A model generated the notes under the pieces. That model saw only the letters and a program-made list of their open reading frames with translations, made no database searches and was not told the origin of the DNA. The translations under genes and the position numbers were made by a program. From Streptomyces pluripotens (GTDB taxonomy: Bacteria; Actinomycetota; Actinomycetes; Streptomycetales; Streptomycetaceae): 64,000 nucleotides of DNA. The DNA is taken from positions 4,960,001-5,024,000 of the forward strand of contig NZ_CP021080.1 of NCBI RefSeq assembly GCF_000802245.2, in the 5' to 3' direction. Positions 37,972 through 57,473 of this stretch are shown here, piece by piece (position 1 is the stretch's first letter; every line of letters starts with the position of its first letter).

Positions 37972-38952
37972 TCAGAGCACCTTCTTGTCGGTCGTGCCGT
38001 CGGTCGGGGCGCCGGTGGCGTCGGCGCCCCGACCGGAGACGGAATTGTCCCCCGCCCCGGCCTGTGCACTCTCGGTCGGGTCGGACGCCGGGCCGGTGCT
38101 GGGCTTCCGCGACGGTTCGGCCTCCCGGAGGGTGTCCTCTTCGCCTTCCCGGGACGGGCGGCGCAGTAGGGCGATCGAGCCGGAGACCGTGGTCGCCCGG
38201 AGTCTGCCGGTGCCCGCGCCGAGCCGACCGGTGATCTTGTGCGTGCCCCACTGGCCGTGCACCCGAAGTCCGTCGAAGGCGTTGGAGATCGTGCCGCTCG
38301 CCGTGTTCGCCTCCACCTCGGCGTCCGCCGGATGTGGCAGGCGGATGGCGATCTCGCCGGAGACGCTGGTGAGGCTGACCTGTGTGGGTCCGTCCGGATC
38401 CAGGTCGATCATCATCGAACCACTGACGGAGTCCGCACGGACAGAGGGGCCGGACCCCTCGACCACGGTCAGGTCTCCCGAGACCGAGTTGAACCGGAGA
38501 TCACCGGTGACCGCCTGGGCCTCCAGATTTCCCGAGACGGTATCTGCACGGACCGGACCCGAGAGGCCGACCAGGGTGGTGTCGCCGGTCACTCCCTTGA
38601 CCACCGCAGGACCGCGGATACCGGAGACGACGGCGCCGGCGCCGACCACGCCCACCTCCACGCAGGTGTCGGCGGGGACCGCGAGGGAGACGACGGCGCT
38701 GCGCCGCCAGCCCTTGCGGTCGAGCCATTTCAGGAAGCCCTTCCAGGGCAGATCGTCGTAGGCCACCGTGAGGGTGCCGTGCTTCTGGGTGACCACCAGA
38801 GGGGGGCCTTCGAGCTCCGAGACCTCCAGGCGCGCGGAAGCCTCGTCCGTGCCCACCACGTTCACCGTGCCGTTCACGATGCGGACCTTGAGGTCGCCTA
38901 CCGGGATGTCGAACGTCAGCTTCTGGGGCTCGGTGACGGACCACTCGGACAT
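37972..38952 (-). CDS. DUF4097 beta-helix-like protein
   Basis: 326 residues. Repeated SVSGDLTV/ DTVSGNLEAQAVTGDLRF type strands form a right-handed beta-solenoid as in DUF4097/DUF4098 (adhesin-like) proteins. There is no signal peptide, so it is cytoplasmic. The C-terminal 70 residues are charged and low-complexity. It is the first gene of an operon with the PadR regulator, and two operator-like palindromes lie upstream. Confidence 0.87.
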   Translation of the reverse strand: MSEWSVTEPQKLTFDIPVGDLKVRIVNGTVNVVGTDEASARLEVSELEGPPLVVTQKHGTLTVAYDDLPWKGFLKWLDRKGWRRSAVVSLAVPADTCVEVGVVGAGAVVSGIRGPAVVKGVTGDTTLVGLSGPVRADTVSGNLEAQAVTGDLRFNSVSGDLTVVEGSGPSVRADSVSGSMMIDLDPDGPTQVSLTSVSGEIAIRLPHPADAEVEANTASGTISNAFDGLRVHGQWGTHKITGRLGAGTGRLRATTVSGSIALLRRPSREGEEDTLREAEPSRKPSTGPASDPTESAQAGAGDNSVSGRGADATGAPTDGTTDKKVL

Positions 38953-40381: not shown

Positions 40382-41041
40382 ATGAGCACCGAGATCTACT
40401 TCAGCAACAACTACCGCGACCTGTGTGTCGAGCACGGCACCGGTGCGGGTTTCCAGTTCGAGTTCTCCTGCTCCCGCTGCTACGACACCTGGCGCTCGCC
40501 GTTCGAGTCCTTCCGGGCCGGGCAGATGGCCGGTTGGCTGTCGCGTGGGGTCAACGCCGCATGGTCGTTCATCGGCGGCGCCGGACGTGGTGTGTCCGCC
40601 GCCGCGGACGGTTTGGCGGGAGCGAGTTTCGGTACGCAGCGGGACGCGGCGTTCACCCGCGCCATAGAGAACGCACAGGGCCACTTCAACCGCTGCCCGC
40701 GCTGCACCGACTACGTCTGTGCCCGTTGCTGGAACGCGGAGCACGGCCTCTGCCTGAACTGCTCGCCGGACACCGCCGCCGAGGCGCAGGCGGCGCAGCA
40801 GCGGGGGCTGAACGACATGGTCGCCCAGCGTGCCTATGACGCGGGCCAGCAGCGTGGCGGCACATACGACGTCACCACCCCGCGTCAGCTGGTCTGCCCC
40901 AACTGCCGTACCGAGACCCGTGGCAGCGCCTTCTGCCCGGGCTGCGGACACCGTCTCGCCCAGACCACGAGTTGCTCGGCGTGCGACGCCGCCCTTCCGG
41001 AGGGCGCCGCCTTCTGCCCCGCCTGCGGCGCCCAGCGGTGA
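40382..41041 (+). CDS. multi-zinc-ribbon protein
   Basis: 219 residues with five visible Cys pairs or ribbons: FSCSRCYDTW, FNRCPRCTDYVCARCWN, GLCLNCSPD, then the C-terminal pair of classical zinc ribbons LVCPNCRTETRGSAFCPGCGHR and SCSACDAALPEGAAFCPACG. A Gly/Ala-rich helix (GWLSRGVNAAWSFIGGAGRG) between them could be amphipathic. No enzyme motif. It lies just upstream of the vWA-MoxR-type genes on the same strand and may be part of that system. Confidence 0.85.
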   Translation: MSTEIYFSNNYRDLCVEHGTGAGFQFEFSCSRCYDTWRSPFESFRAGQMAGWLSRGVNAAWSFIGGAGRGVSAAADGLAGASFGTQRDAAFTRAIENAQGHFNRCPRCTDYVCARCWNAEHGLCLNCSPDTAAEAQAAQQRGLNDMVAQRAYDAGQQRGGTYDVTTPRQLVCPNCRTETRGSAFCPGCGHRLAQTTSCSACDAALPEGAAFCPACGAQR

Positions 41042-41122
41042 GGCGGGCGCCCGGGCCGTGGGCGCGCACCATCATCCGGGACGCTTTGGAGGCGGGGGAC
41101 GGCCACCAGCCGTATCGTCCTC

Positions 41123-41152
41123 TCCCCCTCCCCCTCCCCCTCCCCCTCCCCC
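41123..41152. repeat. hexanucleotide repeat (TCCCCC)x5 before the Trypco1 gene
   Basis: T residues at exact 6-bp intervals from 41123 to 41147 separate runs of five C. The complementary strand is (GGGGGA)x5, able to form a G-quadruplex. It ends 46 bp before the chosen start of the next gene, within the likely promoter or leader. Confidence 0.9.
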
Positions 41153-41197
41153 TTCCCGGGAGTTAACCTTCTCCTCCCAGCGGTGAACGGGGGCGTC

Positions 41198-41641
41198 ATG
41201 ACCGGCGGAGTCGAGCGCATACGCCTGGACGACGGGACCGTCGTCTGGGCCAGGGTGGGGGCGGCGCACGAGGGCGTGTCGGGCGGGCCGCGCGACGCGG
41301 GCTACGACTGGGGCTACGAGGGGGAGTACCGGGACACTTCGCTCGGCGACCGCATCGTCGACATGGCGGGCGGCCTGGCCGACACGGTCGGTGGTGTCGT
41401 GCGCTCCCTGCGCGCCGGTCTGAACACCCCGGCCCCGGTGGAGGTCTCCGTCAGCTTCGGGATCGAACTGACGGCGCAGTCCGGCAAGATCGTGAGCGTC
41501 ATCGCGGAGGGCGGCGGCAAGTCCTCCCTGACGGTGTCCCTGACCTGGACGGAACCGGCTTCGGCGGCGGGCGGTGCGGACCCCGCAGCGCCCGGCGGTA
41601 GTGCGGCACCCCCCGGACCGCCGGCCTCCGGTGCCGTATGA
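41198..41641 (+). CDS. CU044_2847 / Trypco1 (trypsin-co-occurring) domain protein
   Basis: 147 residues. The core reads VERIRLDDGTVVWARV at the start and PVEVSVSFGIELTAQSGKIVSV with GGGKSSLTVSLTWTEP at the end, the beta-sheet pattern of the CU044_2847 family. A helix (GDRIVDMAGGLADTVGGVVRSL) lies between. The tail is Pro/Ala/Gly-rich. These proteins sit next to trypsin-like proteases and are thought to be their targets or partners. ATG at 41198 has GGGGG 5 nt upstream; a GTG at 41183 is possible. Its stop overlaps the protease start (ATGA). Confidence 0.88.
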   Translation: MTGGVERIRLDDGTVVWARVGAAHEGVSGGPRDAGYDWGYEGEYRDTSLGDRIVDMAGGLADTVGGVVRSLRAGLNTPAPVEVSVSFGIELTAQSGKIVSVIAEGGGKSSLTVSLTWTEPASAAGGADPAAPGGSAAPPGPPASGAV

Positions 41642-43950
41642 GCGCCTTCGCCGAGATGGTGCGCCCCTCCCTCGCGCGCATCGGCGCAACGGGTGACGGG
41701 TATGCAACGGACCGTGACCCGTACTGGGGGTCCGGGTTCTTCATAGCCCCGGGCTGGCTGTTGACCTCCGCTCATGTCGTGGGGAAGGGGGGAGCCGGGG
41801 CGTGCCGAGGGGAGAGCGCGATGAGCGTGACCTGGCAGGAGCGCACCGCCGCCGACGCCCGGCAGGAGCCCGCCGTCGACCCCTGGCGGGAGCGCACCGG
41901 CACCGGAACCGCCGTACTTGTCGCACCCGGTCCGCAGGACTCGCGGTCCCTGCGCGATCCCTGGCCGTTCCCCGATCTGGCGCTCGTGAGAGTGAGCGGT
42001 GCCGACGACGTGCCGTGCCTCTGGCTCGGCGACCGGGAGGCGGGACCACGGACCCCGCTCGGGTTGTACGGCTGGTCCGTGCAGACAGGTGAGCTGGGTC
42101 TCCGGAACGGCACCGGTGAACTCGCCGGCTCCGACGCGCGAGCCCTGCTACTCGCCGGGAGCCAACCGGTCGGCGGGCTGTCCGGCGGGCCCGTGCTCGA
42201 CCTGCGGCAGGGCTCCGTGATCGGAGTGATCAAGGGCCGGCGCCGGGAGGAGGGCGTCGCCGTTCCGGTCACCGCACTGTGCGAGCTGCTGGACCAGCGC
42301 GAGTCGCGCCGGGCGGTGCGCGAGGTGCTGCGTGCTCACGACCTGTACCACGCGAGCCGTCTGGGCTCCCGCTCCGCGCACCCGGACTGGGCCACCTTCC
42401 GGGCCGCCCTGCCCGGACACGTGCCGTCGGCCTCCGCGGTCGGCGTGGAGCTGCGGACGCGGCTGTACGGCCATCTCGCGCAGTTGCCACCGCCGTCCGG
42501 AGCCGGTGAGGTCGTCCACCTCGTGGAGGACGTGAAGGAGAGGGTGTGCGGCGAACGCCTGCACTCGCTGCTGGTCCGGAACGTACGGACCTGGCGTGAG
42601 GGCGCCGCGCTGCTGTACGGACTGCGCGCGCTGGAGCCCGGCGGCGGCGGGACGCTGGTCGACCTCGACGCCGTGCTGGTGTACGCGGCGATGGTGGCCC
42701 GCAGGGCTGCCGGGGGACGCGCCGGACGGGTGGACCGTGAACGGCTGCGGGCGTTTACTACCTGGATCAACGCGCAGGCCGCGGGGCACCGGAGCTGGGC
42801 GGTCGGCGAGGCCATTCGCGCGCTGCTGGACGGGGTCAGCGGCCCCACCGGCTGGCGCGAAGCGGCCGGTGGGGCCGCTGAGGCGCCCGCCGGGAGCGTC
42901 TGCGTGGAACCGACGAGGCTGGTGGGCGGGGCGTTCGCCGCCCGGACCGATGTCCTCGTCAAGGTCGGCGCGGAGACGTACGGCCGGCATCCCTGGAGCG
43001 TGCAGCTGATCTACGACGGCAAGGACGTCACCCCGGTGGACGCGGATGAGCGCGGTGTGCCCGCCGAGGAGTTGGCCCGGGTACTGCGGGAGCCGCTCGC
43101 CAGGGCGCTCAGCCAGGGCGATCACGGTGAGCATCTCGCCGCCGTAGAAGTGTTCCTGCCCCGCAGACTGTTCGACCTGCCCGTGGACGAGTGGCAGCTG
43201 CACCCCGGTCCGCCCGGCGGCAGCCCGGGTTCCGGTTCCGTTCCCGGCCGACACCCCGAAGCCCGGGAATCCGTGCGCGACGCCGATCGGGACGGGCGCG
43301 GTGCCGCCGGCACCGCCGTCGCCGTCGCCGATGACCTGGACGACGACTTTGAGGGCGACTTCGAGGACGACCTGGACGACGAGCGGGCCCTGCCGCTCGG
43401 GATGCGGCGGACGGTCGTCATCCGGGAGATCCGGCGCAACGGCCGTGAACCCTCCCCGGAGTGGCGGCGGCGGTGGAAGGGCGCGCTGCAAGGGCCGCTG
43501 GCGCACGGCACCCTGCACGGGCGGTCCCCCGCCGAGGGGCACCTGGCGGGGACCCGCGCCGGGGGCAGGTATCCGTTCTACGGCGTGCTGTCGGCGATGG
43601 GTGACGCGCGTGTGCCGGTCTACTGCGGTCCGGTCGGCCGCGGTGAGGGGTATGCGGCGATGAGGGACGCGCTGAGGTCGGGGCATCCGGTGGTGCTGTG
43701 GCGCCGCGACCGGCATGATCACGAGGAGTGCCGGGACTTCCACCGACAGGCAGCCGACCTGCTGGAGCTCGCCCGGCACGCCGACGGGCTGCACGGCCGG
43801 GTCCGTGAACTGCGCATCCGTCTCGCTGATCCCGCTACCGCCCGCGCCCATGGACTGCGCGGCAAGATCGCCGTGCTGATCGACCCGCCCGACCGGCCAC
43901 CGTACGGGGCCGAGACGATGCGCCCGCCACCCGCCGCACCTGACGACTGA
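41638..43950 (+). CDS. trypsin-like serine protease fused to a VMAP-type C-terminal domain
   Basis: 770 residues. The protease (1-230) has the full triad: His46 in LLTSAHVV, Asp113 in FPDLALVRV and Ser182 in GGLSGGPVLD. No signal peptide is visible, so it acts inside the cell. A helical middle domain (about 230-390) and the C-terminal VMAP-C region (about 420-760, with HPWSVQLIYDGKDVTP, VEVFLPRRLFDLPVDEWQL, VVLWRRDRHDH, KIAVLIDPPDRPP) follow, split by an acidic linker. VMAP proteins link effector proteases to MoxR-vWA sensors. It is coupled to Trypco1 by ATGA. Confidence 0.9.
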   Translation: MSAFAEMVRPSLARIGATGDGYATDRDPYWGSGFFIAPGWLLTSAHVVGKGGAGACRGESAMSVTWQERTAADARQEPAVDPWRERTGTGTAVLVAPGPQDSRSLRDPWPFPDLALVRVSGADDVPCLWLGDREAGPRTPLGLYGWSVQTGELGLRNGTGELAGSDARALLLAGSQPVGGLSGGPVLDLRQGSVIGVIKGRRREEGVAVPVTALCELLDQRESRRAVREVLRAHDLYHASRLGSRSAHPDWATFRAALPGHVPSASAVGVELRTRLYGHLAQLPPPSGAGEVVHLVEDVKERVCGERLHSLLVRNVRTWREGAALLYGLRALEPGGGGTLVDLDAVLVYAAMVARRAAGGRAGRVDRERLRAFTTWINAQAAGHRSWAVGEAIRALLDGVSGPTGWREAAGGAAEAPAGSVCVEPTRLVGGAFAARTDVLVKVGAETYGRHPWSVQLIYDGKDVTPVDADERGVPAEELARVLREPLARALSQGDHGEHLAAVEVFLPRRLFDLPVDEWQLHPGPPGGSPGSGSVPGRHPEARESVRDADRDGRGAAGTAVAVADDLDDDFEGDFEDDLDDERALPLGMRRTVVIREIRRNGREPSPEWRRRWKGALQGPLAHGTLHGRSPAEGHLAGTRAGGRYPFYGVLSAMGDARVPVYCGPVGRGEGYAAMRDALRSGHPVVLWRRDRHDHEECRDFHRQAADLLELARHADGLHGRVRELRIRLADPATARAHGLRGKIAVLIDPPDRPPYGAETMRPPPAAPDD

Positions 43951-44137
43951 CTCCGTCAGTTGCCCGCCGCTGCCGCCGAACCGATCGTCAACTCGCATGG
44001 TTCGTACGGTCGTTCGTCGGGCAGTCAGGTGGGCATCAGACGCCCCGAACCTCGGCGGACACGGTCGGCGGGCGGTAGCCTCGTACGTCGGACGGCCGGG
44101 CCCGCTGCATGATCACCAGAGCCGGGAGGAGCCCAAG

Positions 44138-45151
44138 GTGAACGACTGGCGGATCTACCGCGGAGTGGGCCAGCCGCACGACGGCATGCGACGGTTGCCG
44201 GCGCCGCCTCCCTGGCGCGACTTCGCGGCCTCTCGGCAGGACACGGAGGGCGGTCCGGAGGACCCCAGCAGCGCCCGCCGACTCGGCGTGCGCCGCCGTC
44301 TGGTGGAGAACTACGCGCCCCGGCCGGCCGAGGTGGACGCGGTCAACGCGGCCCTCTACCTGCGCCGGCCCCTGCTGGTGACCGGCAACCCGGGCACCGG
44401 CAAGTCGACCCTGGCGTACGCGATCGCCCATGAACTGGGACTGGGCAAGGTGCTGCGCTGGCCCATCGTCAGCCGCACCACGCTCCAGGACGGCCTGTAC
44501 CGGTACGACGCCATAGGTCGGCTCCAGGACGTCCAGATCGAGCGTGCCCGGGGCGCTGACGGCACCGCCGCCGCACCCGCGATCGGCTCGTACATCCGGC
44601 TCGGACCGCTCGGCACCGCGCTGCTGCCCGCCGAGCAGCCCCGCGTCCTGCTGATCGACGAACTCGACAAGAGCGACCTCGACCTTCCCAACGACCTGCT
44701 GAACACCCTGGAGGAAGGTGAGTTCTCGATCCCCGAGTTGGAACGGCTCGCCGACCGCGAACCCGTGGTCGAAGTACTCACCCACGACGGCGACCGGGTG
44801 GCCGTGCACGGCGGGCGGATCGCGTGCGGCGCGTTCCCGGTGATCGTGCTGACGTCCAACGGCGAGCGCGACTTCGCGGCCCCGCTGCTGCGCCGCTGCG
44901 TCCAGCTTGAGCTGGACCCGCCCGGCGAGGAGCAGCTCACAGCCATGGTCGAGGCGCACCTCGGCAGGGACGGTGCCGCCGCGGGTGCCGACCTGATCCG
45001 CCGGTTCCTGGAGCGCGAACCCGGCGAGGTGGTCGCCGCCGACCAGCTCCTCAACGCCCTGTTCCTCACCCAGCACGACCCGCACGCGCAAGGACTCTCC
45101 CGGGAACGTATCGCGGAGATGCTCATGCAACCGCTCGACCGCACGAGGTGA
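44138..45151 (+). CDS. MoxR-type AAA+ ATPase
   Basis: 337 residues. Walker A GNPGTGKS at 83-90, Walker B LLIDELDK near 174, sensor 1 VIVLTSNGERDF, arginine finger region APLLRRCVQLELDPP. The N-terminal 50 residues (NDWRIYRGVGQPHDGMRRL) are typical of conflict-system MoxR proteins. It probably remodels or activates the vWA protein encoded next. GTG at 44138 has GGGAGGA 7 nt upstream; longer frames are unlikely. The 187 nt before it can hold a promoter. The next gene starts 7 nt after its stop. Confidence 0.92.
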   Translation: MNDWRIYRGVGQPHDGMRRLPAPPPWRDFAASRQDTEGGPEDPSSARRLGVRRRLVENYAPRPAEVDAVNAALYLRRPLLVTGNPGTGKSTLAYAIAHELGLGKVLRWPIVSRTTLQDGLYRYDAIGRLQDVQIERARGADGTAAAPAIGSYIRLGPLGTALLPAEQPRVLLIDELDKSDLDLPNDLLNTLEEGEFSIPELERLADREPVVEVLTHDGDRVAVHGGRIACGAFPVIVLTSNGERDFAAPLLRRCVQLELDPPGEEQLTAMVEAHLGRDGAAAGADLIRRFLEREPGEVVAADQLLNALFLTQHDPHAQGLSRERIAEMLMQPLDRTR

Positions 45152-45158
45152 GAGGCGG

Positions 45159-48100
45159 GTGCCGGGGATGCACCTGGACGAGCTGATCGGCAAGCTGCGC
45201 CAGGGAGGGCTGCAGCCGACGGCCGAGGACGTGGCAGACGCGCTCTGGCTGGCCCAGCGGCTCGACGACGCGGGCCTGCCCTGCGACGCTGCCGGGCCCT
45301 CCACGCGCGCTCCCTCGGGCCGCCCCGGCGAGCTGTCCTCCGGCGAACCTCCCTCCAGCGAGCCTCCCGACTCCCTGACGCCGCCCGGCACAGCGCCCCG
45401 GCACACGACCCCCGCCGGCGAGGCCTTCGTTCCCCTGCACACCCAGGGCCCCACCCCACGTCCGGCAGCCGCCTCCACTGCCGCCCCCGCCTCGTTCCCC
45501 GTCCGCGCGCCCGCCGCGGGTGCCCTGCCCGGACTGCTCGGGCTGGAAAAGGCGCTGCGCGCGCTCGGCCGCTACCGGACCGCTTCCGCACGCGACCGGG
45601 ACGAGCAGCTCGATGAGGAGGCCACCGCCGACCGCGCCGCCGCCAGCGGCATCCTGCTCCCCGTCACCCGGCCCGGCCGACCCCGGCGGTGCGACGTTCA
45701 ACTGCTCATGGACACCGGTCCCGCCATGGCCGTCTGGGGACGGCTGGTCGAGGAACTGCGCCAGGCCTGCCAGCAGTCCGGCGCGTTCGCCTCGGTGCGC
45801 GTCCACCGTCTGTACGCGGACGACTCCGGCGCCCCGGTGGTCGGGACGACCGCCGGTCCCGGCCGGCACACCCGGCTACGCCCGGCCGACGAGCTGCACG
45901 ACCCCACCGGCCGCCGGATCACCTTCGTCATCAGCGACTGCGTCGGCCCGCTGTGGGAGAACGGCAGCGCACAGCGGCTGCTGCAGACCTGGCCGCGCAC
46001 CGCTCCACTGGCCGTCGTCCAGCCGTTGCCGCCACGTCTGTGGGGCCGTACCGCACTGCCCGCCGAGCCTGGTCGGCTGGTCCGTGCCGCCGAGGCTGGC
46101 GCCCGCCTGGACTTCGTGCCCGACGACGAGCCCTGGGACGAACCGGCTCATGACGCCCGGCCGGTGCCGGTCCTGCAGCCCGTCCCGGAGGCCTTCGAGG
46201 CCTACGCCCGGCTAATCGGCGGTACCGGTCCCACCAGCGAACACGCCTGGGCCGCGTGCCCCGGCCCGGGCACGGAGGCCGTCGCCGTTCCTCCCGCCCC
46301 GACGCAGCGCAGCGGCGCCGAGTCGCTGCGCGCCTTCCGCGCCGGGGCCTCGCCCGGTGCCCTTCGGCTGGCCGTCTACTTCGCCGCGGCCCCGCTCACC
46401 CTTCCGGTGATGCAGCTGGTCCAGCGGGCCATGCTGCCCGACACCGGTCCCATGGAACTGGCCGAAGTGTTGCTGGGCGGCCTGCTCCGGCAGCTCCCCG
46501 GCACCGCGGACCAGCCCTGCTTCGTCTACCCGGGCCGGGTGCAGGACCTGCTGTTGGCCTCCCTCGACCAGGACACCGCCGCACTCGTCCTCAAACACTG
46601 TTCGGCCTACGTGGAACGGCACTTCGGTAGGGGCACCCGCAACTTCGCCGCGCTCGCCGCGGCCCGGCTCGCCGACCAGGACCCGGCCGCCGGCACCGGC
46701 GACCTGCCCGACGACTCCGGGCCGCAGCACACCGGCAGTATGGAGGCCGAGCTGTTCGCCCGTGTTCCCGCCCGCGTCCTGCGCTTCTACCTGCCGGGAC
46801 TGAACCCCGCCGACCCGCTCACCGAGGCCGAGCACCTGCTCGACCAGTGGCACCAACTCGCCGATCCGGAGGCGCTGCGCCGAGCCCGGGAGCAGGCCCG
46901 CGCCGCGATGGACGCTGTGGCCGCCGCCCGCATCGCTCCTGCGGCTCCCGGGGCCGGACCGGACATCGCCGCTGGAGTCCGGGCCCACCTCGTGCTCGGC
47001 CGGGTGCTGCGCGCGCAGGCCGGTACGGCCGCCGTGCGCACCCGGGGTCGACGTGCCGAGCTGTTGCGCGAGGCGGTGGGCGAACTCGCCAGGGCCCATG
47101 CCGCGGCCCCGGTCGGCAGTCGCGAACGAGCCGATGCCGCGCTCGAACTGGCCTCCTGCAGGCGGGAGCTGTGGCAGCACACGGCGGAGGCGGACCAACT
47201 CGCCGCCGCCCTGGAGCCCCTGGACCCGGACAGCTCGCCGTGGCCGAGGGTGGCCGAGCGGGCGCGGGATTGGGTCCGTGGACGTCCCAGCAGCCCCGAC
47301 GGGAGCCTCGCACCGGGCCCGGTGGGCCGTTCCGGCTCCGCCCCGTCCGATTCGGTCCGCTCCGCGGACCACTCTGGCCAGGCGGGCTCCGGGGACCGCC
47401 CGGATCACGGGGATCGTGGGGACCCCGGAGGGCACGGGACCCCTGCCGAGCCCGGCTCCCGGGATTCTGCCGCCGATGTTCCCTGGGAGACGACCGTCCA
47501 TCGCGCCCGCCTCCTCCTGCGGGGCCGGATCCTGCTCGACCTGCGGCACCCCGGGGCGGCCATCGCGGAACTCCGGGAAGGATGTGCTCTGCTGGCGGCC
47601 GAGGAAGCCGATGATGGCGTGCTGGCGCCGGCCCTGTTGGATCTTGCGCGGGCGCTGCGCGGTGCCGGCGCCGAAGACGCCGAGACGCGGGAAGCGCTGC
47701 TGGGCGCCCAGCGGGCTGCGGGGGAGGAGCCCTCGCTGTTGCTGCCCTGCCTCGCCGCGCTGGCGGACTTCCACGACAGTCGGGGCGAACATCCGGCGAC
47801 CGACGCGGCGTACCAGCGGGCCGCCCGGCTCGCGCCCGGCGACGGTGCGCTACGTGCCCGACTGCTCACTGCCTGGGGGGAGTCACTGCTCGGCCGGGCA
47901 TCCGTGCAGGACGGTGCGGGCATCGTGGACCGGGCCGAGTACGTGCTGCGCGAGGCACTGAACTCGCTGCCCGCACGGTCCGCGGAGCGGGGGCGGCTGC
48001 AGGCTCTCGTGGGTAGCGCCCTCGCCCAGCGGTTCCGCCACCTCGGCTTCCTGCCCGACCTGTTCGAGAGCCGACACCTACTGGGCCAATCCCTGCGTGC

Positions 48101-48569
48101 CGCTGCTGACGCGGTCGTGCGGGCTGAGGCCTGGCTGCAGTTGGGCCGGGTGCGACTGGAGGGCTGGCAGCGCGCCGGGGCACCGGTGCTGAGGGAGGCC
48201 CTGCAAGCGTACGAGAACGCCGAACGGGAAGCTCAGGCCGCCCACGGTGACGATCCCGGCTCGGTCACGGCGGCCCGTGCGCGTCACGGGAGTGGGGCGG
48301 TGCTCGCGCTGATGGGGCGGCCGGAGGCGGCCCGGGTCGCGTTCCAGGGAGCCCTGGAGCTGTGGTACCGGCTGACCGCGGCGCTGCGAGAGGTGGACTG
48401 GGCGGACGTGCAGTCCACCCGGCAGGCGGTCGAGGAGTTCACGGGGGAGGTGACGCGGTCGGGCGCGGCACCGGGAATGCCGGAGTCGGAGTGGGCGCGG
48501 CTCGCCCCGCCGTGGTTTCCGTGGGCCGAGCAGCGGGACCGGCGGGCAAACGAACCGGCCCGTATTTGA
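45159..48569 (+). CDS. SAV_2336-type vWA/TPR protein, partner of the MoxR ATPase
   Basis: 1136 residues. The N-terminus LDELIGKLRQGGLQPTAEDV is a small helical domain, then a Pro/Ala-rich linker. A vWA-like domain starts with VQLLMDTGPAMAVWGRLVEE near residue 185 (metal motif degenerate: DxGxA instead of DxSxS) and includes FVISDCVGPLW. From about 560 on, alpha-helical TPR-like repeats predominate (ARLLLRGRILLDLRHPGAAIAELREGC, LADFHDSRGEHPATDAAYQRAARLAP). It likely serves as the scaffold or sensor of the vWA-MoxR system. An ATG at 45168 is an alternative start. Confidence 0.88.
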   Translation: MPGMHLDELIGKLRQGGLQPTAEDVADALWLAQRLDDAGLPCDAAGPSTRAPSGRPGELSSGEPPSSEPPDSLTPPGTAPRHTTPAGEAFVPLHTQGPTPRPAAASTAAPASFPVRAPAAGALPGLLGLEKALRALGRYRTASARDRDEQLDEEATADRAAASGILLPVTRPGRPRRCDVQLLMDTGPAMAVWGRLVEELRQACQQSGAFASVRVHRLYADDSGAPVVGTTAGPGRHTRLRPADELHDPTGRRITFVISDCVGPLWENGSAQRLLQTWPRTAPLAVVQPLPPRLWGRTALPAEPGRLVRAAEAGARLDFVPDDEPWDEPAHDARPVPVLQPVPEAFEAYARLIGGTGPTSEHAWAACPGPGTEAVAVPPAPTQRSGAESLRAFRAGASPGALRLAVYFAAAPLTLPVMQLVQRAMLPDTGPMELAEVLLGGLLRQLPGTADQPCFVYPGRVQDLLLASLDQDTAALVLKHCSAYVERHFGRGTRNFAALAAARLADQDPAAGTGDLPDDSGPQHTGSMEAELFARVPARVLRFYLPGLNPADPLTEAEHLLDQWHQLADPEALRRAREQARAAMDAVAAARIAPAAPGAGPDIAAGVRAHLVLGRVLRAQAGTAAVRTRGRRAELLREAVGELARAHAAAPVGSRERADAALELASCRRELWQHTAEADQLAAALEPLDPDSSPWPRVAERARDWVRGRPSSPDGSLAPGPVGRSGSAPSDSVRSADHSGQAGSGDRPDHGDRGDPGGHGTPAEPGSRDSAADVPWETTVHRARLLLRGRILLDLRHPGAAIAELREGCALLAAEEADDGVLAPALLDLARALRGAGAEDAETREALLGAQRAAGEEPSLLLPCLAALADFHDSRGEHPATDAAYQRAARLAPGDGALRARLLTAWGESLLGRASVQDGAGIVDRAEYVLREALNSLPARSAERGRLQALVGSALAQRFRHLGFLPDLFESRHLLGQSLRAAADAVVRAEAWLQLGRVRLEGWQRAGAPVLREALQAYENAEREAQAAHGDDPGSVTAARARHGSGAVLALMGRPEAARVAFQGALELWYRLTAALREVDWADVQSTRQAVEEFTGEVTRSGAAPGMPESEWARLAPPWFPWAEQRDRRANEPARI

Positions 48570-48669
48570 CCGGAGTTGATCGACTTGGGGTTTCTGGTTC
48601 GTGCACCTCGGGAAGAACTGGGCAGCTGTTATGGCCGTGCGGGGCGGGCGTAGGCAGGGAGGAGCCGAG

Positions 48670-48945
48670 GTGGCGCAGCAGAGGAAAGGAGCGACGGGTC
48701 CCGGGGAGGGAATCGTGCGGACCGTGCTCCCGGCCGACCTCACCGATGTCGACCTGCGGACTTTGCGCGCCATGGAGGATCCGGACCTGATGACGGCCGT
48801 GGTCCGTGTGCTGTACGAGGCCGGTGCGGCCACAGAGGTCTGGTATGTCAGTGAGGACCCGCCCACGCGAATGACGGGGGCTGCCGACCGAATGTTTCCG
48901 GCCGGACTCGCCGGCGCGGACCGGAGTGAGGACACCCGGGGATGA
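48670..48945 (+). CDS. FxSxx-COOH-like small protein (candidate modified peptide)
   Basis: 91 residues. The central DLTDVDLRTLRAMEDPDLMTA segment is the hallmark of the FxSxx-COOH (FxsA) family, whose members normally end exactly in F-x-S-x-x. Here the matching place reads MFPAGL (Ala for Ser), followed by 11 extra residues (AGADRSEDTRG). GTG at 48670 follows GGGAGGAG at proper spacing; the longer frame from 48601 is less likely. The stop overlaps the start of the HExxH gene (ATGA), tying it to the candidate modifying enzyme. Confidence 0.75.
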   Translation: MAQQRKGATGPGEGIVRTVLPADLTDVDLRTLRAMEDPDLMTAVVRVLYEAGAATEVWYVSEDPPTRMTGAADRMFPAGLAGADRSEDTRG

Positions 48946-50222
48946 CCTCGGTGATCGTGTCCTCGCACGTCTTCAGGGACTTGGCCGGGACGCGACCCAC
49001 GGCAGAGGGCTCCGTGCTCCTGCGCGCCGCACTCCACGCGCGTCGCATGGTGCTTCTCAAGGCGCTCCTGGTCCGTGTCGAGGAACGGCGCGCTTCGCTG
49101 AGCGCGGCGGCCCGGCGGCGGTTCGAGGAGGACTGGGCGCTGCTGGAGCACGCGGAACGGACCGACCCGGCCGCTGTCCGGGAGGTCGTCGACTATCCGA
49201 TCACCGGCGCCTGGCTCGCGGACGTGCTCGGCGTTCCCGAGGGCCCCGGGTTCGAGGGGCGCCTGGCTCACCTGAGCGGGGTGGCCGTCGCGGCAGCCGT
49301 CCGCGCGGGCTGTCCTGCCGACCGCACGCTCGACGTGCCCCCCGGCCGTTTCATGTTGCCCGGCCTCGGCAGTGTGGACTGTCCTTCCGGGCGCCTGCGC
49401 CTGCACGGCGAGGACGGCCGTACCCGCATCGCGGACGCCTCGGGCTGCGTCGACGTGGCCTTCACCCGGCCGCAGCCCGGTGCGCACCGCCCGGCCGGCC
49501 GCGGTCCCGGCTGGTCCGGTTTGTGCGAGCTGCCCGGAAGCCCCGCGGTTCTCGACGACCTGGACCCCTACCGTGTGCCGGCCGACGGGATAGGCCCCGA
49601 GCGGCTGCCCGCCGCCGTCCGTGTGCGCGCCGCCCACCGGCGATGGGCCGAGCGCTGGCCCGCGGCCCGGGCCCTGCTGGCGGCCACCGATCCCGGCCGG
49701 GCCGAGGAGACCGCCGCGATCCTGCGTGCCGTGGTGCCGCTGGCGGACCAGCCACGGCCGGGCGGGGTCGCGATGACCGCGACCCTGCGGGCCGCTCCGG
49801 GGGCGATGGTCTGTCAGCTCCCGGCCGACACCCGGGGCCTGGCGGAGTCCCTGGTGCACGAGGCCCACCACACGAAGCTGGCGGTTCTGCACGAGCTGGT
49901 GCCGCTCTACCGCGCGGCCGGCACCGCCCGTCACCGGGTCGGATGGCGGCCGGACCCGCGCCCGGTCCCCGGTGTGCTGCAGGGCGCGTACGCCCATCTG
50001 GCGCTGACGGACCTGTGGGCGCGGGCCCGCAGCGCCCGGGTGGACGACCAGAGGTGGCGCGCCCGGGCCGAACACCGGTTCGGATTCTTTCGGGGTCAGG
50101 TCGGCGAAGCCTTGTCCATCCTGCGCGAGTCCGATGAACTGACCTTTGCAGGACAGGAGTTCGTCCGAGAAATGGGCAGCCACCAGGTGCGGCTGGGCCG
50201 GGCGGTCCGTCGTTCCAGGTGA
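48942..50222 (+). CDS. HExxH-motif peptide-modification protein of the FxSxx system
   Basis: 426 residues. The metal motif is LVHEAHHTK (His306, Glu307, His310), with a further His in GAYAHLALTDLW as possible third ligand. The layout (helical N-terminus, C-terminal HExxH) fits the family found beside FxSxx peptides; recent work assigns related proteins to 2-oxoglutarate/iron-dependent beta-hydroxylation rather than proteolysis. It directly follows the peptide gene with a 4-nt overlap. No radical SAM partner is encoded nearby. Confidence 0.85.
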   Translation: MTSVIVSSHVFRDLAGTRPTAEGSVLLRAALHARRMVLLKALLVRVEERRASLSAAARRRFEEDWALLEHAERTDPAAVREVVDYPITGAWLADVLGVPEGPGFEGRLAHLSGVAVAAAVRAGCPADRTLDVPPGRFMLPGLGSVDCPSGRLRLHGEDGRTRIADASGCVDVAFTRPQPGAHRPAGRGPGWSGLCELPGSPAVLDDLDPYRVPADGIGPERLPAAVRVRAAHRRWAERWPAARALLAATDPGRAEETAAILRAVVPLADQPRPGGVAMTATLRAAPGAMVCQLPADTRGLAESLVHEAHHTKLAVLHELVPLYRAAGTARHRVGWRPDPRPVPGVLQGAYAHLALTDLWARARSARVDDQRWRARAEHRFGFFRGQVGEALSILRESDELTFAGQEFVREMGSHQVRLGRAVRRSR

Positions 50223-50301
50223 CAGTTCGTGGGTAGTCGGTTGCGCTACGTTATGCAGGCGCCGTCCGGGAGTGCGACGGGCGCGGGAACAGGGAGCGAC
50301 G

Positions 50302-53300
50302 ATGGTGGAACAGCGGCGGTCGAGCGGGGACGGTACCGGGGCACCCGAACACTTCCTGGTGGTCTTCCCGGGCTACCACCGCTCATGGGCGGCCTGGATC
50401 GTCCATGCCCTGGAACGCCACGGCCACCGGGCGACCCTCCAGCGGTGGGACCCGCCGCGCGAGGTGGCACTGGAGGACTCGCTGGGTGACCTGCTGCTCT
50501 CCAGCGGGCGGGTGCTGCTCGTGCTCGACGACTGGTTCTTCGAACTCGGCCCGCGTCCCCCGGGCGAGTGGAACGACGCGCTGCGCGGCTTCGTCGCCGC
50601 GCACGCGGACCGGTTCGCCGCCGTCAACCTCACCAACCGGCCGCTGCTCCCCGCCACCGCCGTCCTCGAACCGGCCAGCCTGTGGGGATTGAGCGAGGAA
50701 GCGGCGGAGGAACGCCTGCTGAGCCGGCTCGGCCTGGAACGCCGGCGCACCCCGAAGACCATGCCCACACGGGTGCGGTACCCGGAGACCCGCTGCGAGA
50801 TCTGGGGTGAGGTGCCGCGCCGCAACCCGCGCTTCACCGGCCGCGATGACCTGCTCACCGACCTCCACCAGCGCCTCTCCGACGCCGAGCGCGGCGCCTC
50901 CTCCTGCACGTTGCTCGGCATGTCCGGCATCGGCAAGACCCAGCTCGCCGCCGAGTACGCACATCGCTTCAGCACCGACTACGACCTGGTGTGGTGGGTC
51001 AACTCCGACGACCGCAACATCCAGCGCGACCGTTTCGGTGAACTCGCCGTGGAACTAGGCCTGTCCATCGGAAGCGAGCCCGGCGAGCGCATCCGCGCGG
51101 TCCGGGACGCCCTGAGGCGCGGCGAGCCGTACTCCAACTGGCTGATCATCTTCGACGGCTGGGACGACCCCGAGGGAGTCAACGCCCTACTGCCGCAGGG
51201 CTCAGGCCATGTCCTGGTCACCTCCCGGAACCGGGCTTGGAGCGAGTACACCGAGGTCCTGGAGGTACCGGCCTTCCTGCGCGCCGAGTCGACCAGCTAT
51301 CTGATGCGTCGGGCCACCCACATCACCGCGGCCGAGGCGGACGAGGTCGCCGCCGAGTTCGGTGACGTACCGCTGCCGCTGGTGCAGGCCGCCTCCTGGC
51401 TCGGTGAGTCCGGCATGGACGTGGCCGAGTACCTCCGGATGGTCCGTGAACGCAGGCTCTCCACCGTGGACGAACCGGCCACCGGTGAGGGCTTCCCGCA
51501 GTCGTCCATGACGTCCTGGTCGATACTGCTCAACCGGCTGCGCCGTTCCCAACCCCAGGCTATCGAAGTGCTCGGGCTGTGCACGTCCTTCGCCCCGGGC
51601 CGCATTCCGCTCGGCCTGATCCGCGCCTACCCGCAGACGGACCTCCCTGAGGAACTCCGCTGGATGGCCACCGACCTGCCCGCCTGGACCCGGTCCCTGG
51701 ACACCCTGGTCAACTACTCCGTGCTCACCCGCGAGACTCGCGGCCCGCTCGGCGCGGAGATGGGTCCGCACCAGGAGTCGGTGCACATGCACCGGCTCGT
51801 CCACGACATCGTCTCCAAGCTGACCAGCGAGGACAGCCACGCCCTGCACCGCAGGGCGGTCCGCACCCTGCTCGCGGAAGCCGACCCGGGCAACGCCGTG
51901 GACAGCAGGAACTGGCCCCGGTACGCGGAACTGCTGCCGCACCTGGAACCCTCCGGCGCGCTGACCAGCAGCCAGCGTCGGGTGCAGACCACCGTGCTGA
52001 ACTGCCTTCGGTACTGCTTGCGCAGCGGCGAGTACAACAGCGGTCTGGAGCTGGCCCGGAAGGTCCGCGACAACTGGTCGCGGACGATGGACCCACTGGC
52101 CCAGCCGCTGCTCGACCTGACCAACCAGGAGAGCTACATCATGCGGGCCAGCGGCCGGTTCCGCGAGGCCTACGAACTAGACCGGGCGGTCCTGGAGAAA
52201 CTCCAGCACACCTCCCCACGCGACGAGGTGGCGGAGCTGGTCACCCAGGGTTCCCTGGCGGGCAGCCTGCGCTATCTGGGCCGGTATCAGGAGGCCTACG
52301 ACCTGCAGAAGAAGGTGCTGGAAGGCAACGAGCGACTGCTCGGTCCGGACGAGGTGGACACGCTCGTGGCCCGGCACAACCTGGGTGTGAGCCTGCGGCT
52401 GCGCGGCCGGTACGCGGAGGCGTTCGAACTCGACCTGGAGACCCTGGCCCGGCGCGAGAACGTCTTGCGCACCCGGCACATCAACACGCTCAAGTCCGGT
52501 AGTGCGGTCGCGCACGACCTGCGTCTCCTGGGCCGCTACCGTGATGCCCTCGCCCGGCAGGAACCAGTGGTCCGGCTCCACGTCCAGGTACTCGGACCGC
52601 AGCATCCGCAGACCCTTGAGGCACGGGTCCAGCTGGCGATGTGCCGGCGCCGGGAGAGCGCGCTCAACCCGGATGTGGGGCCCTCGATGGCCGCCCTCTT
52701 GGAACAGCTGGCACAGCTGCACGGCCGCGGACACCACCGCACCCTGGCGTTCATCAACAACTACGGAAACTTCCTCAGGGAGCACGGCGATCTCAGCCAG
52801 TCCCGGGACCTCATCGACGAGGCCGAGGCCGGCTACCGCTCCCTCCTCGGTCCGGCCCACCCCGTCACCACCGGCATGCTCACCAACACCGGCCTCGTCA
52901 TGCAGGCGGCGGGCGAACGCGCCGGAGCGATGTCGATGTTCGAGTCCGCGCTGGCGGGGCTGACCGCCACCCTCGGTCCCGACCATCCCTGGGTGCTGGG
53001 CTGTGCACTGAACGCGGCGAGCGCTCGGAACTTCAACGGCCGCATCGCCGATGCCCTGGACCTCAGCCGGGACACACTGCGCCGGGCCCGGCACACCTTG
53101 GGCGACCAACACCCGCTCACCCTGTCCTGCCAGGTGGCGCTCGCTGCCGACCTGCGGGCCTTCCGAGAGCAGGAGGAGGCCGGGAAACTGGAGGAGGACG
53201 GCCTGCTCGGACTCACCCGTACCCTGGGCGCTCAGCACCCGCACACCATCTCCGCCCGCCAGCGCACGCGACCCCATTGGGACTTCGAGGCCTACCTGGG

Positions 53301-53304
53301 CTGA
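50302..53304 (+). CDS. TIR/NB-ARC/TPR protein of the FxSxx system (FxsT type)
   Basis: 1000 residues. A TIR-like domain lies at about 15-150 (EHFLVVFPGYHRSWAAWIVHAL, SGRVLLVLDDWFF). The NB-ARC STAND ATPase has a P-loop GMSGIGKT near 206-213, Walker B WLIIFDGWD and GHVLVTSRN. From about 560 there are tetratricopeptide repeats (GRFREAYELDRAVLEKLQ, GRYQEAYDLQKKVLEGNERLLG, GRYAEAFELDLETLARRENVL). The architecture equals plant-NLR-like STAND sensors: TPRs sense, NB-ARC oligomerises, TIR acts. AGGGAG precedes the ATG at 50302. A 79-nt gap separates it from the HExxH gene, so it may also have its own promoter. Confidence 0.92.
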   Translation: MVEQRRSSGDGTGAPEHFLVVFPGYHRSWAAWIVHALERHGHRATLQRWDPPREVALEDSLGDLLLSSGRVLLVLDDWFFELGPRPPGEWNDALRGFVAAHADRFAAVNLTNRPLLPATAVLEPASLWGLSEEAAEERLLSRLGLERRRTPKTMPTRVRYPETRCEIWGEVPRRNPRFTGRDDLLTDLHQRLSDAERGASSCTLLGMSGIGKTQLAAEYAHRFSTDYDLVWWVNSDDRNIQRDRFGELAVELGLSIGSEPGERIRAVRDALRRGEPYSNWLIIFDGWDDPEGVNALLPQGSGHVLVTSRNRAWSEYTEVLEVPAFLRAESTSYLMRRATHITAAEADEVAAEFGDVPLPLVQAASWLGESGMDVAEYLRMVRERRLSTVDEPATGEGFPQSSMTSWSILLNRLRRSQPQAIEVLGLCTSFAPGRIPLGLIRAYPQTDLPEELRWMATDLPAWTRSLDTLVNYSVLTRETRGPLGAEMGPHQESVHMHRLVHDIVSKLTSEDSHALHRRAVRTLLAEADPGNAVDSRNWPRYAELLPHLEPSGALTSSQRRVQTTVLNCLRYCLRSGEYNSGLELARKVRDNWSRTMDPLAQPLLDLTNQESYIMRASGRFREAYELDRAVLEKLQHTSPRDEVAELVTQGSLAGSLRYLGRYQEAYDLQKKVLEGNERLLGPDEVDTLVARHNLGVSLRLRGRYAEAFELDLETLARRENVLRTRHINTLKSGSAVAHDLRLLGRYRDALARQEPVVRLHVQVLGPQHPQTLEARVQLAMCRRRESALNPDVGPSMAALLEQLAQLHGRGHHRTLAFINNYGNFLREHGDLSQSRDLIDEAEAGYRSLLGPAHPVTTGMLTNTGLVMQAAGERAGAMSMFESALAGLTATLGPDHPWVLGCALNAASARNFNGRIADALDLSRDTLRRARHTLGDQHPLTLSCQVALAADLRAFREQEEAGKLEEDGLLGLTRTLGAQHPHTISARQRTRPHWDFEAYLG

Positions 53305-53308
53305 CACC

Positions 53309-53369
53309 CGCACGGCAAGGGCCCGGCCCCGAGTTCCACTGGAACTCGGGGCCGGGCCCTTGCCGTGCG
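53309..53369. terminator. 29-bp perfect inverted repeat, bidirectional terminator
   Basis: Arms 53309-53337 and 53341-53369 are exact reverse complements around a 3-nt ACT loop. It lies between the converging FxsT and kgd stop codons. Confidence 0.85.
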
Positions 53370-53381
53370 ACGTTCCGGAGG

Positions 53382-56300
53382 CTACGCCTCGAACACCTCA
53401 CGCGCCAGCTGCTCCTGCTCGGCCTGGTGGCGCTTGGCGGAGCCCACGGCCGGGGACGAGGAGTGCGGGCGGGAGATCCGGCGCAGGCGTTCGCCGTGCG
53501 GGACGTCCGCCCCGACCGCCAGGTCCAGGTGGTCGATCAGGTTGAGCGCGATGAACGGCCAGGCACCCTGGTTGGCCGGCTCCTCCTGGGCCCAGAGGTA
53601 CTTCTCCGCGTTCGGGTACTTCTTGATCTCCTCCTGGAGCTCGGCACCCGGCAGCGGGTACAGGCGCTCGATGCGGATGATCGCCGTATCGGTGGCGCCG
53701 CGCTTCTTCCGCTCCGCCTCCAGGTCGTAGTAGACCTTGCCGGCGCAGAAGACGACCTTGCGGACCGTGGCCGGGTCGACCGAATCGTCGCCGATGACCG
53801 GGCGGAACTGGCCGTTCGTGAACTCCTCCGCCTTCGAGGCAGCGGCCTTCAGACGCAGCATCGACTTCGGGGTGAAGACGACCAGCGGCTTGTGGTGCGG
53901 GTTGTGCACCTGCCACCGCAGGAGGTGGAAGTAGTTCGACGGGAGCGTGGGCATCGCCACCGTCATGTTGTTCTGCGCGCACAGCTGGAGGAAGCGTTCG
54001 GGGCGCGCGGACGAGTGGTCCGGTCCCTGGCCCTCGTATCCGTGCGGGAGCAGCAGGACCACGCCGGAGGTCTGGCCCCACTTCTGCTCGGCCGAGGTGA
54101 CGAATTCGTCCACGACCGTCTGGGCGCCGTTGACGAAGTCGCCGAACTGCGCCTCCCACATCACCAGCGCGTCGGGGCGGGCCAGCGAGTAGCCGTACTC
54201 GAAGCCCATCGCCGCGTACTCGGAGAGCAGGGAGTTGTAGACGTTCAGGCGGGCCTGGTCGTCGGAGAGGTACTGCAGCGGGGTGTACTCCTCGCCGGTC
54301 TCCCGGTCGATCAGCACCGCGTGGCGCTGGCCGAAGGTGCCACGCTGGGAGTCCTGGCCGGCCAGTCGGACCGGAGTGCCCTCCAGCAGCAGGGAGCCGA
54401 CGGCGAGGGTCTCGCCCATGCCCCAGTCGATCGTGCCGTCCTCGACCATCGATGCACGGCGCTGCAACTGCGGCTGCAGGCGCGGGTGGACGGTGATGTG
54501 GTCGGGCACGTTGACCTGGGACTCGGCGATCCGCTTGACGACCTCCGAGGAGACCGCGGTCGGGACCGTCACCGGGAAGCCGTCCTGGGGTACCGGCACG
54601 CTGCCGGAGAGCGGCTGCGAGGTTGCCTCGCGGACCTCCGTGAAGACCTTCTCCAGCTGGCCCTGGTAGTCCTGAAGTGCCTGCTCGGCCTCGTCCAGAG
54701 TGATGTCGCCACGACCGATCAGGGACTCGGTGTAGAGCTTGCGCACCGAGCGCTTCTTGTCGATCAGGTCGTACATCAGCGGCTGGGTGAAGGCCGGGTT
54801 GTCCGACTCGTTGTGACCGCGGCGGCGGTAGCAGATGAGGTCGATCACCACGTCCTTGTTGAACGCCTGGCGGAACTCGAAGGCGAGCCGCGCCACGCGT
54901 ACGACGGCCTCGGGGTCGTCGCCGTTGACGTGGAAGATCGGCGCCTCGATCATGCGGGCCACGTCCGTGGCGTACATGGAGGAACGCGAGGACTCGGGGG
55001 CCGCGGTGAAGCCGACCTGGTTGTTGATGACGATGTGGACCGTGCCGCCGGTGCGGTAGCCGCGCAGCTGCGACATGTTCAGGGTCTCGGCCACCACGCC
55101 CTGGCCCGCGAAGGCCGCGTCGCCGTGGATCGCCACCGGTAGGACGGTGAAGTCCGTGCCGCCCTTGTTGATGATGTCCTGCTTGGCGCGGGCGACACCC
55201 TCCAGGACCGGGTCGACGGCCTCCAGGTGGGAGGGGTTGGCGACCAGCGAGACCTTGATCTGCTCGCCGTCCAGGCCGGTGAAGGTGCCCTCGGCGCCCA
55301 GGTGGTACTTCACGTCGCCGGAGCCGTGCATCGACTTCGGGTCGAGGTTGCCCTCGAACTCGCGGAAGATCTGCGCGTAGGACTTGCCGACGATGTTCGC
55401 GAGAACGTTCAGCCGGCCGCGGTGGGCCATGCCGATGACGACCTCGTCCAGACGGGACTCGGCGGCCGAGTCGATCACCGCGTCGAGCAGCGGGATGACG
55501 GACTCGCCGCCCTCCAGCGAGAAGCGCTTCTGTCCGACGTACTTGGTCTGCAGGAAGGTCTCGAAGGCTTCCGCCGCGTTCAGCCGGCGCAGGATGCGCA
55601 GCTGCTCCTCGCGCTCCGGCTTGGAGTGGGTGCGCTCCACGCGGTCCTGGATCCACTTGCGCTGCCTGGGGTCCTGGATGTGCATGAACTCGATGCCGGT
55701 GGTGCGGCAGTACGAGTCGCGCAGCACGCCGAGGATGTCGCGCAGCTTCATCATCGACTTGCCGGAGAAGCCGCCGACCGCGAACTCGCGCTCCAGGTCC
55801 CACAGGGTGAGGCCGTGCTCGACGATGTCCAGGTCGGGGTGCTTGCGCTGGCTGTACTCCAACGGGTCAGTGTCGGCCATGACGTGGCCGCGGACCCGGT
55901 AGGAGTGGATCAACTCGAAGACGCGGGCGGCCTTGGTGACGTCGTCGTCGTGCGAGGCGTCGATGTCCTTGAGCCAACGGACCGGCTCGTAGGGGATGCG
56001 CAGCGCCTTGAAGACGTCGTCGTAGAAGCCGTTCTCGCCCAGCAGCAGGTTCGCGACCTGGCGCAGGAACTCGCCGGAGGCGGCACCCTGGATGACCCGG
56101 TGGTCGTAGGTCGACGTCAGCGTCATGACCTTGGAGACACCGAGCTTGTTGAGGGTGTCCTGGCTGGTGCCCTGGAACTCGGCCGGGTAGTCCATGGAGC
56201 CGACGCCCATGATCACGGACTGGCTGGGCATCAGACGCGGGACCGAGTGGACGGTGCCCAGGCCACCGGGGTTGGTCAGGGAGACCGTGACACCGGTGAA

Positions 56301-57170: not shown

Positions 57171-57473
57171 GGCGGCAACCGCCCTCTTCCGCTTCACAAG
57201 GTGATGGACAGCGGGAATAAAGGCTACGCCTCCAAGACCGTGAAGGTCAGGTCGGGCCCGTTCATCGTCGCGTAAGTCACACGAGAAATCTTGTTTCAGG
57301 GCTTGATATGGCGGGAAACAACCGTGGTTCCGCAGATGAGAGGGTGCACAGACGCCGACCCGTCGGCCCCGCGTTCGACACGCGGGGCGGGTCTGTCTTC
57401 AGTCACACGTGTCCAGCTGCGCGAAAACGGCTGGGACGGCGGTGGATCTTGTGCTTCCGATGGGAACTTTACG
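57171..57473 (-). promoter_or_regulatory. 303-bp region between the sensor kinase and kgd, with a hairpin
   Basis: No gene is seen. At 57357-57393 two nested stems pair (GACCCG...CGGGTC and CCCCGCGT...ACGCGGGG), a likely terminator for the upstream two-component operon. The kgd promoter should lie between 57171 and about 57350, which includes an AT-richer stretch. Confidence 0.5.

Follow-up and report, generated by a model that had tools for sequence, protein, structure and literature searches.

The question raised by this locus is what an FxSxx-type peptide system looks like when both its radical S-adenosylmethionine (SAM) maturase, FxsB, and the FxSxx end of its peptide are missing. The locus lies in a 64,000-nucleotide (nt) stretch of the 7.35 Mb Streptomyces pluripotens genome (NZ_CP021080.1, positions 4,960,001 to 5,024,000), which is called the window hereafter. 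It consists of eight open reading frames (ORFs) on the plus strand, encoding in order a multi-zinc-ribbon protein, a Trypco1 protein, a trypsin-type VMAP, a MoxR ATPase, a SAV_2336-type vWA protein, a small precursor peptide, an HExxH protein and a TIR-NB-ARC-TPR protein. A previous sequence-only reading had claimed this content and order, which were borne out, and the profile scores showed its assignments of Trypco1, VMAP, MoxR, SAV_2336, HExxH and TIR-NB-ARC-TPR to be right in kind (Table 1). Its description of the peptide as 'FxSxx-like' did not hold: the TIGR04268 match falls below the cut-off of 28 bits, covers profile positions 1-34 of 44 only, and there is no FxSxx end. Judged by profiles and gene order, the block is very probably a VMAP-ternary (MoxR-vWA) system with a peptide module that has no radical-SAM maturase. 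In the alignments of relatives, FxsB and the FxSxx end are absent together, and the leader, a single tryptophan (Trp) and the active site of the HExxH protein are retained.

VMAP-ternary systems, with Trypco proteins beside trypsin-type VMAPs, were described by Kaur et al. (2020; PMC7159879); statements attributed here to this paper and to PMC12636437 refer to excerpts of them. In the excerpted text, about 20% of actinobacterial VMAP-ternary systems carry a peptide-processing set. FxSxx peptides are found there with a radical-SAM/SPASM gene and a TIR-AP-ATPase as a separate downstream gene, and RxD and acidic peptides with an AP-ATPase fused to the vWA protein. The published FxSxx layout, again from excerpts, places FxsB between the peptide and the HExxH gene, and the peptide ends like LWGFNSAF. 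Because Kaur et al. describe VMAP-ternary systems with an FxSxx set, the joining of the two sets, which the sequence-only reading had proposed to be one system, was already in print and is not new here.

The window shares with that published set Trypco1, trypsin-VMAP, MoxR, a vWA protein with a TPR-like tail, a small precursor, an HExxH protein and a separate downstream TIR-AP-ATPase. The VMAP, MoxR and vWA genes stand in the 5'-3' order expected of a VMAP-ternary system, and the MoxR N-terminal motifs WxhapG and PsWRxa are present as WRIYRG and PPWRDF. AP-ATPase and vWA protein are separate genes, unlike in the RxD and acidic types as excerpted. In contrast to the FxSxx set, for which the excerpts give the two as paired, the window has neither the radical-SAM gene nor the FxSxx end. 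The NF040586 match of the TIR-NB-ARC-TPR protein belongs to a family titled "FxSxx-COOH system tetratricopeptide repeat protein", and a PADLOC scan of the block for catalogued anti-phage defence systems returned partial ATPase and protease matches only (best E 3.3e-5). A version with HExxH and without radical SAM did not turn up in open-literature titles and the starts of abstracts, which is weak evidence of novelty since supplements and most subscription papers lay outside that scope.

A subtype of the locus without FxsB

A profile search found no FxsB at the locus or anywhere in the window's genome (best 25.7 bits, cut-off 370). For comparison, 121 Streptomyces genomes were searched with TIGR04267, which matched in 99, and 106 regions round the matches were fetched. 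These regions, the loci of 80 HExxH-protein relatives (the top 80 of 144) and the window were scored with profiles built from relatives and then typed. Type A, with vWA, FxsB, HExxH and a separate TIR protein, comprised 25 loci (23 from the 106 regions). Type B, the type-A set without FxsB, defined as having no FxsB between the peptide and HExxH gene, comprised 84 loci, namely 16 regions, 67 of the 80 loci and the window. In 30 type-C loci the AP-ATPase was joined to vWA, and 16 type-D loci had FxsB and HExxH and no vWA half. No type was assigned to 23 regions (of 106) and 9 relatives' loci (of 80), many of which are cut by contig ends, and two loci that passed the first type-B rule (L071, L201) were dropped for a weak TIR match. 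Regions and loci overlap in species, and the type-B loci hold 73 distinct HExxH and 75 distinct TIR protein sequences.

Type B was monophyletic in FastTree trees of the TIR protein (support 0.996), MoxR (0.917) and HExxH (0.818), and type A and B together formed a clade with supports of 1.0, 0.998 and 0.66, respectively. Type A was itself monophyletic in two trees (0.956 and 0.597), and type D, which carries FxsB, fell outside A+B. By these trees, the HExxH-only subtype is a distinct clade next to the FxSxx subtype, which the sequence-only reading had overlooked, and loss of FxsB in the B line would be the simplest reading.

At the genome level, 19 of the 121 genomes were assigned to type B by hand; the vWA gene was seen in 17 of them, the window's among these, and contig ends truncate the locus in the other two. 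None of them overlapped with the 23 type-A genomes. FxsB had no match at E <= 1e-50 in 14 of the 19, the window's genome included, and was found elsewhere in the other five (G004, G025, G033, G041 and G084).

The precursor peptide

An FxSxx-like end was present in 17 of 18 type-A peptides (7 of 25 loci gave no peptide) and in none of the 82 type-B peptides, 2 of the 84 loci having yielded no peptide. The alignment held 71 distinct type-B and 18 type-A sequences. Leader positions common to both types include alignment columns L100, L105 and L108, and Trp is present in 70 of the 71 type-B peptides. At the column after this Trp, type A has W (14/18) or N (4/18), followed in most by GF(N/D)(S/N)xx. 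The ratio of nonsynonymous to synonymous substitution rates (dN/dS) over all type B was 0.43 for the leader and 0.94-0.97 for the other parts tested, with silent sites near saturation, and by this measure clear purifying selection is seen in the leader only.

In type A, where a peptide was found, 1.3-2.0 kb separate the peptide stop from the start of the HExxH domain; in 78 of the 82 type-B loci this distance does not exceed about 0.26 kb (outliers L061, L079, L111 and L116). A short string, TTTNCGGCC(G), lies upstream of HExxH. Exact copies of TTTNCGGCC precede HExxH in 29 of the 84 type-B loci and in none of the 25 type-A loci; as background, both strands of all the typed loci together gave 80 exact matches, or 0.013 per kb. 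It is kept at silent positions and lies 3' of the peptide stop codon in some loci; it is possibly a regulatory or RNA element.

Conservation of catalytic residues

The HExxH motif and W335, R336, D338, R340, Q347 and H352 were present in 84 of 84 type-B proteins. The nearest solved folds are ChlBH, an alpha-ketoglutarate oxygenase according to its PDB title, and SjiH, and the fold agrees with a predicted alpha-ketoglutarate- and iron-dependent hydroxylation. The VMAP catalytic H, D and S positions were kept in 75, 76 and 76 of 76 type-B relatives, and the MoxR Walker A K, Walker B E and N-terminal W and R motif residues in all 76. Active-site positions of the NB-ARC protein are likewise conserved in type B, and 24 of 25 type-A proteins retain the vWA metal-site serines.

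No paper on SjiH was found in the open literature. Compared with ChlBH and SjiH, both of them aKG-HExxH peptide hydroxylases, the window enzyme lacks a radical-SAM partner. The excerpts of PMC12636437 report ChlBH as an alpha-ketoglutarate-dependent hydroxylase and PosC as an oxidative backbone cleaver. PosC and PflC, stand-alone HEXXH oxygenases of Pseudomonas clusters, likewise act on precursors for which no cyclophane step is named in these excerpts; unlike the window's gene, theirs sit with MNIO/nitroreductase enzymes rather than in a MoxR-vWA/STAND operon, and their substrate motifs (a Gln-run and ARMD) were not seen in the window precursor.

A conserved unit of seven genes

The sequence-only reading had claimed a single system, and this was assessed in the 65 loci whose sequence extends 9 kb or more upstream from the HExxH midpoint, the 15 shorter loci being left out. 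The order Trypco1, trypsin-VMAP, MoxR, vWA/SAV_2336, HExxH, TIR-NB-ARC-TPR on one strand was kept in 60 of the 65, and the peptide was found by profile in 59 of these 60. The five exceptions were two loci with Trypco1 unmatched (L090, L114) and three FxsB sets without this MoxR-vWA part (L112, L117, L118). An FxsB gene was present in two order-keeping loci, L110, which is type A, and L100, where it lies 3' of the TIR gene. Together with 76 of 83 subtype relatives lying beside the same chromosomal gene, a 2-oxoglutarate decarboxylase/dehydrogenase gene called kgd here, this supports the single system and speaks against a chance adjacency of the two halves. The same reading had proposed that independent occurrence of the halves would speak against it, which holds only in part: each half does occur alone elsewhere, as FxsB-HExxH-AP-ATPase sets without the vWA half (type D) or as the vWA half without maturase at the kgd site (L244, L264), but not within this clade.

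The zinc ribbon, claimed as a component, fared differently. No match was found in the 80 relatives' loci or the other loci searched, and close relatives in 3 of 120 other Streptomyces genomes (G005, G059, G083) all lie away from kgd. The unit therefore runs from Trypco1 to the TIR protein; from these comparisons, seven of the eight genes are one conserved unit and the zinc ribbon is an unlinked passenger. The zinc-ribbon protein (40382-41041) has a scattered distribution, occurring in 4 of the 121 Streptomyces genomes including the window's.

Maturases at the kgd site

Leaving the window aside, kgd had a match in 76 of the 83 type-B loci and in 21 of the 25 loci of type A; a DUF4097 gene on the other side of the site had one in 65 and 15, respectively. 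Since both genes flank both types, A and B seem to be variants of a single locus, and the type-A relatives, which are FxSxx-type, lie at the chromosomal site of the window system. The kgd gene is present in 120 of the 121 genomes. Its 3' flank was examined in 40 genomes for which the HExxH search gave neither type A nor type B. A MoxR-vWA set was present in nine of these flanks. Six had FxsB and no HExxH match (L234, L237, L241, L259, L260, L263), L251 was a diverged type A, and L244 and L264 had no maturase. Judged by coordinates alone, G019, G023, G048, G096 and G102 also have FxsB no more than 5 kb from kgd, and a lone HExxH gene adjoins kgd in four genomes (L130, L131, L132, L153). The kgd site in other Streptomyces holds FxsB only, HExxH only, both, or nothing.

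The FxsB-only systems share with the window the site, VMAP-MoxR-vWA and the TIR/NB-ARC/TPR partner (FxSxx_TPR 818 bits in L260), with Trypco1 matched in five of six (L259 is cut at that end). They carry the opposite maturase: FxsB scored 434 and 438 bits in the two scanned and HExxH was unmatched. Their peptide cores, picked by eye in one frame, included AYYEDGP, AHYEDAP and AYFDNEPP, with no Trp-type end. 2-Oxoglutarate, which the kgd product consumes, is also what the HExxH enzyme is expected to use as co-substrate; this link may be positional only, because FxsB-only systems also lie at kgd.

Proposed mechanism and alternatives

According to the argument excerpted from Kaur et al. (2020), MoxR-vWA and VMAP form a threshold and protease arm, the AP-ATPase is an effector, and the processed peptide is a toxin or a signal. 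I infer the chemistry, trigger and output of the window's system as follows. An ancestor with FxsB would have lost it. The precursor would dock by its leader on the HExxH enzyme, a predicted Fe(II)/alpha-ketoglutarate oxygenase, and this enzyme would hydroxylate the peptide, uncyclised, at the Trp or beside it. The TIR-NB-ARC-TPR protein may then read the peptide as an internal ligand or as a guard state. MoxR-vWA, trypsin-VMAP and Trypco1 would set the threshold and, after Kaur et al., release the assembly once an invader, phage or other, is sensed, with the protease and the TIR domain as effectors. The whole chain, from a hydroxylated uncyclised peptide through its STAND/TIR reader to the MoxR-vWA/VMAP threshold, is put forward tentatively and falls somewhat short of being probable.

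Several observations weigh against it. Type A is not the sister of type B in the HExxH tree but paraphyletic to it, and since type C lacks FxsB too, the case for its loss in the B line is one of parsimony and does not amount to proof. One of the 84 type-B loci (L100, Streptomyces smaragdinus) has FxsB in the stretch read, at L100:14442-15788, about 300 nt 3' of the TIR gene, and its peptide has a Y-type core and no Trp in a type-B-like locus; this may represent an intermediate, or the FxsB gene may belong to another set. With a dN/dS of ~0.94 in the stretch round it, the Trp is the one residue there that looks constrained. The TIR catalytic residue is presumably a glutamate; of the 84 type-B proteins, 70 have E at this position, 13 have D and one lacks it, which leaves TIR catalysis uncertain from sequence. 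The vWA metal-site serines are mostly replaced in type B: at the last of them, 10 of the 84 proteins have S, 47 have A, 18 have T, and the rest have other residues or a gap, as if metal binding had been given up. Finally, the uncyclised substrate is a departure because ChlBH is reported, in the excerpts of PMC12636437, to need a preinstalled cyclophane.

The same degeneration of the vWA site would fit a peptide and hydroxylase that are decaying relics of an FxSxx system and now idle, as would the free drift of the peptide outside leader and Trp, and the solitary HExxH genes at the kgd site in four genomes. Decay is nonetheless distinctly unlikely given the invariance of the HExxH motif and six nearby residues in 84 of 84 type-B proteins, the leader dN/dS of ~0.43, the Trp in 70 of 71 peptides, and a clade that spans much of Streptomyces with the peptide in 82 of 84 loci. 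Equally, the HExxH protein may be a zincin metallopeptidase that frees a C-terminal peptide from the precursor without hydroxylation. It is read as a peptidase in the excerpts of Kaur et al. (2020; PMC7159879), and the relative PosC does cut a backbone, though oxidatively (PMC12636437, excerpts); this reading appears improbable.

A further reading, in which FxsB would come from another place in the genome and still cross-link the peptide, draws on the five of 19 type-B genomes with such a match, but the 14 without one include the window's, for which the idea was already unlikely, and the FxSxx end is missing in all 82 type-B peptides found; it is the remotest of the readings considered. Two independent systems sharing an operon, in which the VMAP set and the peptide/STAND set act apart, would agree with the occurrence of each half alone elsewhere (type D; L244, L264). 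The joint order in 60 of 65 loci and the recurrence of the A and B groups in both the MoxR and TIR protein trees make this very unlikely, and the excerpts of Kaur et al. (2020; PMC7159879) also treat the halves as linked.

The hydroxylated-peptide reading matters because the role of the modified peptide in VMAP/STAND systems is, in the excerpted published view (PMC7159879), a guess of toxin or signal. The natural series at the kgd site separates the jobs, with an F-x-S end accompanying FxsB, Trp accompanying HExxH, and a related leader accompanying both. A block resembling an internal alarm system, without the cross-linking enzyme and the FxSxx end, is in effect a natural experiment on the role of each part. 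It predicts an HExxH-family hydroxylase that needs no cyclophane, and peptide, HExxH and TIR-NB-ARC-TPR protein make up a minimal three-gene set for asking if peptide modification switches a bacterial STAND protein. More speculatively, and rather unlikely as a whole, the kgd site could hold an intracellular immune-like complex in which exchangeable maturases write the peptide ligand (FxsB only, both, or hydroxylation only). The hydroxylation-only ligand would be a linear peptide marked at or beside its Trp, and the resting state of the STAND/TIR protein would therefore depend on O2, iron and 2-oxoglutarate; if true, this would be an oxygenase-set alarm.

Gene features and other occupants of the site

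Likely starts were chosen by ribosome-binding sites (RBS) and conservation (Table 1). The sequence-only reading had the genes mostly coupled by ATGA overlaps or tiny gaps, which is right for Trypco1/VMAP and peptide/HExxH; with these starts, gaps of ~190, ~100 and ~80 nt precede the MoxR, peptide and TIR genes.

Table 1. Features of the block and its flanks, in window coordinates (aa, amino acids).
Feature	Position	Strand	Evidence and remarks
DUF4097 protein (flank, outside system)	37972..38952	-	PF13349 39 bits
Multi-zinc-ribbon protein	40382-41041	+	ORF; not counted as unit member
Trypco1 (trypsin-co-occurring domain 1) protein	41183..41641	+	GTG start; PF19493 59 bits; NF041216 52 bits
VMAP, trypsin-like protease with VMAP-C	41638..43950	+	PF20028 107 bits (cut-off 27); PF13365 (Trypsin_2) 44 bits
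MoxR-type AAA+ ATPase	44139..45151	+	AAA_5 35 bits; RBS before GTG 44139; ORF of sequence-only reading starts 43997
SAV_2336-type vWA protein, long C-terminal part	45159..48569	+	NF041121 (SAV_2336_NTERM) 432 bits
FxsA-like precursor, 91 aa, without FxSxx end	48670..48945	+	TIGR04268 21 bits, below cut-off; RBS before GTG 48670; alignment with relatives
Conserved leader segment of precursor	48727..48813	+	Alignment of 71 distinct type-B peptides; dN/dS
Near-invariant Trp codon (W58 of 91-aa form)	48841..48843	+	70/71 distinct type-B peptides
DNA element TTTCCGGCCG	48895..48904	+	47 nt before HExxH start, inside precursor's tail
aKG-HExxH-type peptide beta-hydroxylase homologue	48942..50222	+	TIGR04267 144 bits (cut-off 40); HExxH at ~49857-49871
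TIR-NB-ARC-TPR protein	50303..53304	+	NF040586 (FxSxx_TPR) 782 bits; TIR_2 45 bits; NB-ARC 32 bits; RBS before ATG 50303; ORF of sequence-only reading starts 50146
Perfect inverted repeat, 30-nt arms, probable bidirectional terminator	53309..53369	.	Closes block against convergent kgd
2-oxoglutarate decarboxylase/dehydrogenase (flank, outside system)	53382..57197	-	NF008907 2106 bits

Among the remaining 31 kgd flanks, 23 were empty sites with the DUF4097 gene within 4 kb of kgd, seven had it 5-10 kb away with other genes between, and L246 had no DUF4097 match. Eight proteins were scanned from five such 5-10-kb loci and L244. The genes between kgd and DUF4097 included AMP-binding/thioesterase genes (L250, L265), epimerases (L250, L252) and an ABC protein gene (L254). 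In a genome without the system there, a trypsin-NB-ARC-TPR protein is encoded beside kgd (L248:565-3885), another conflict-like tenant of the site.

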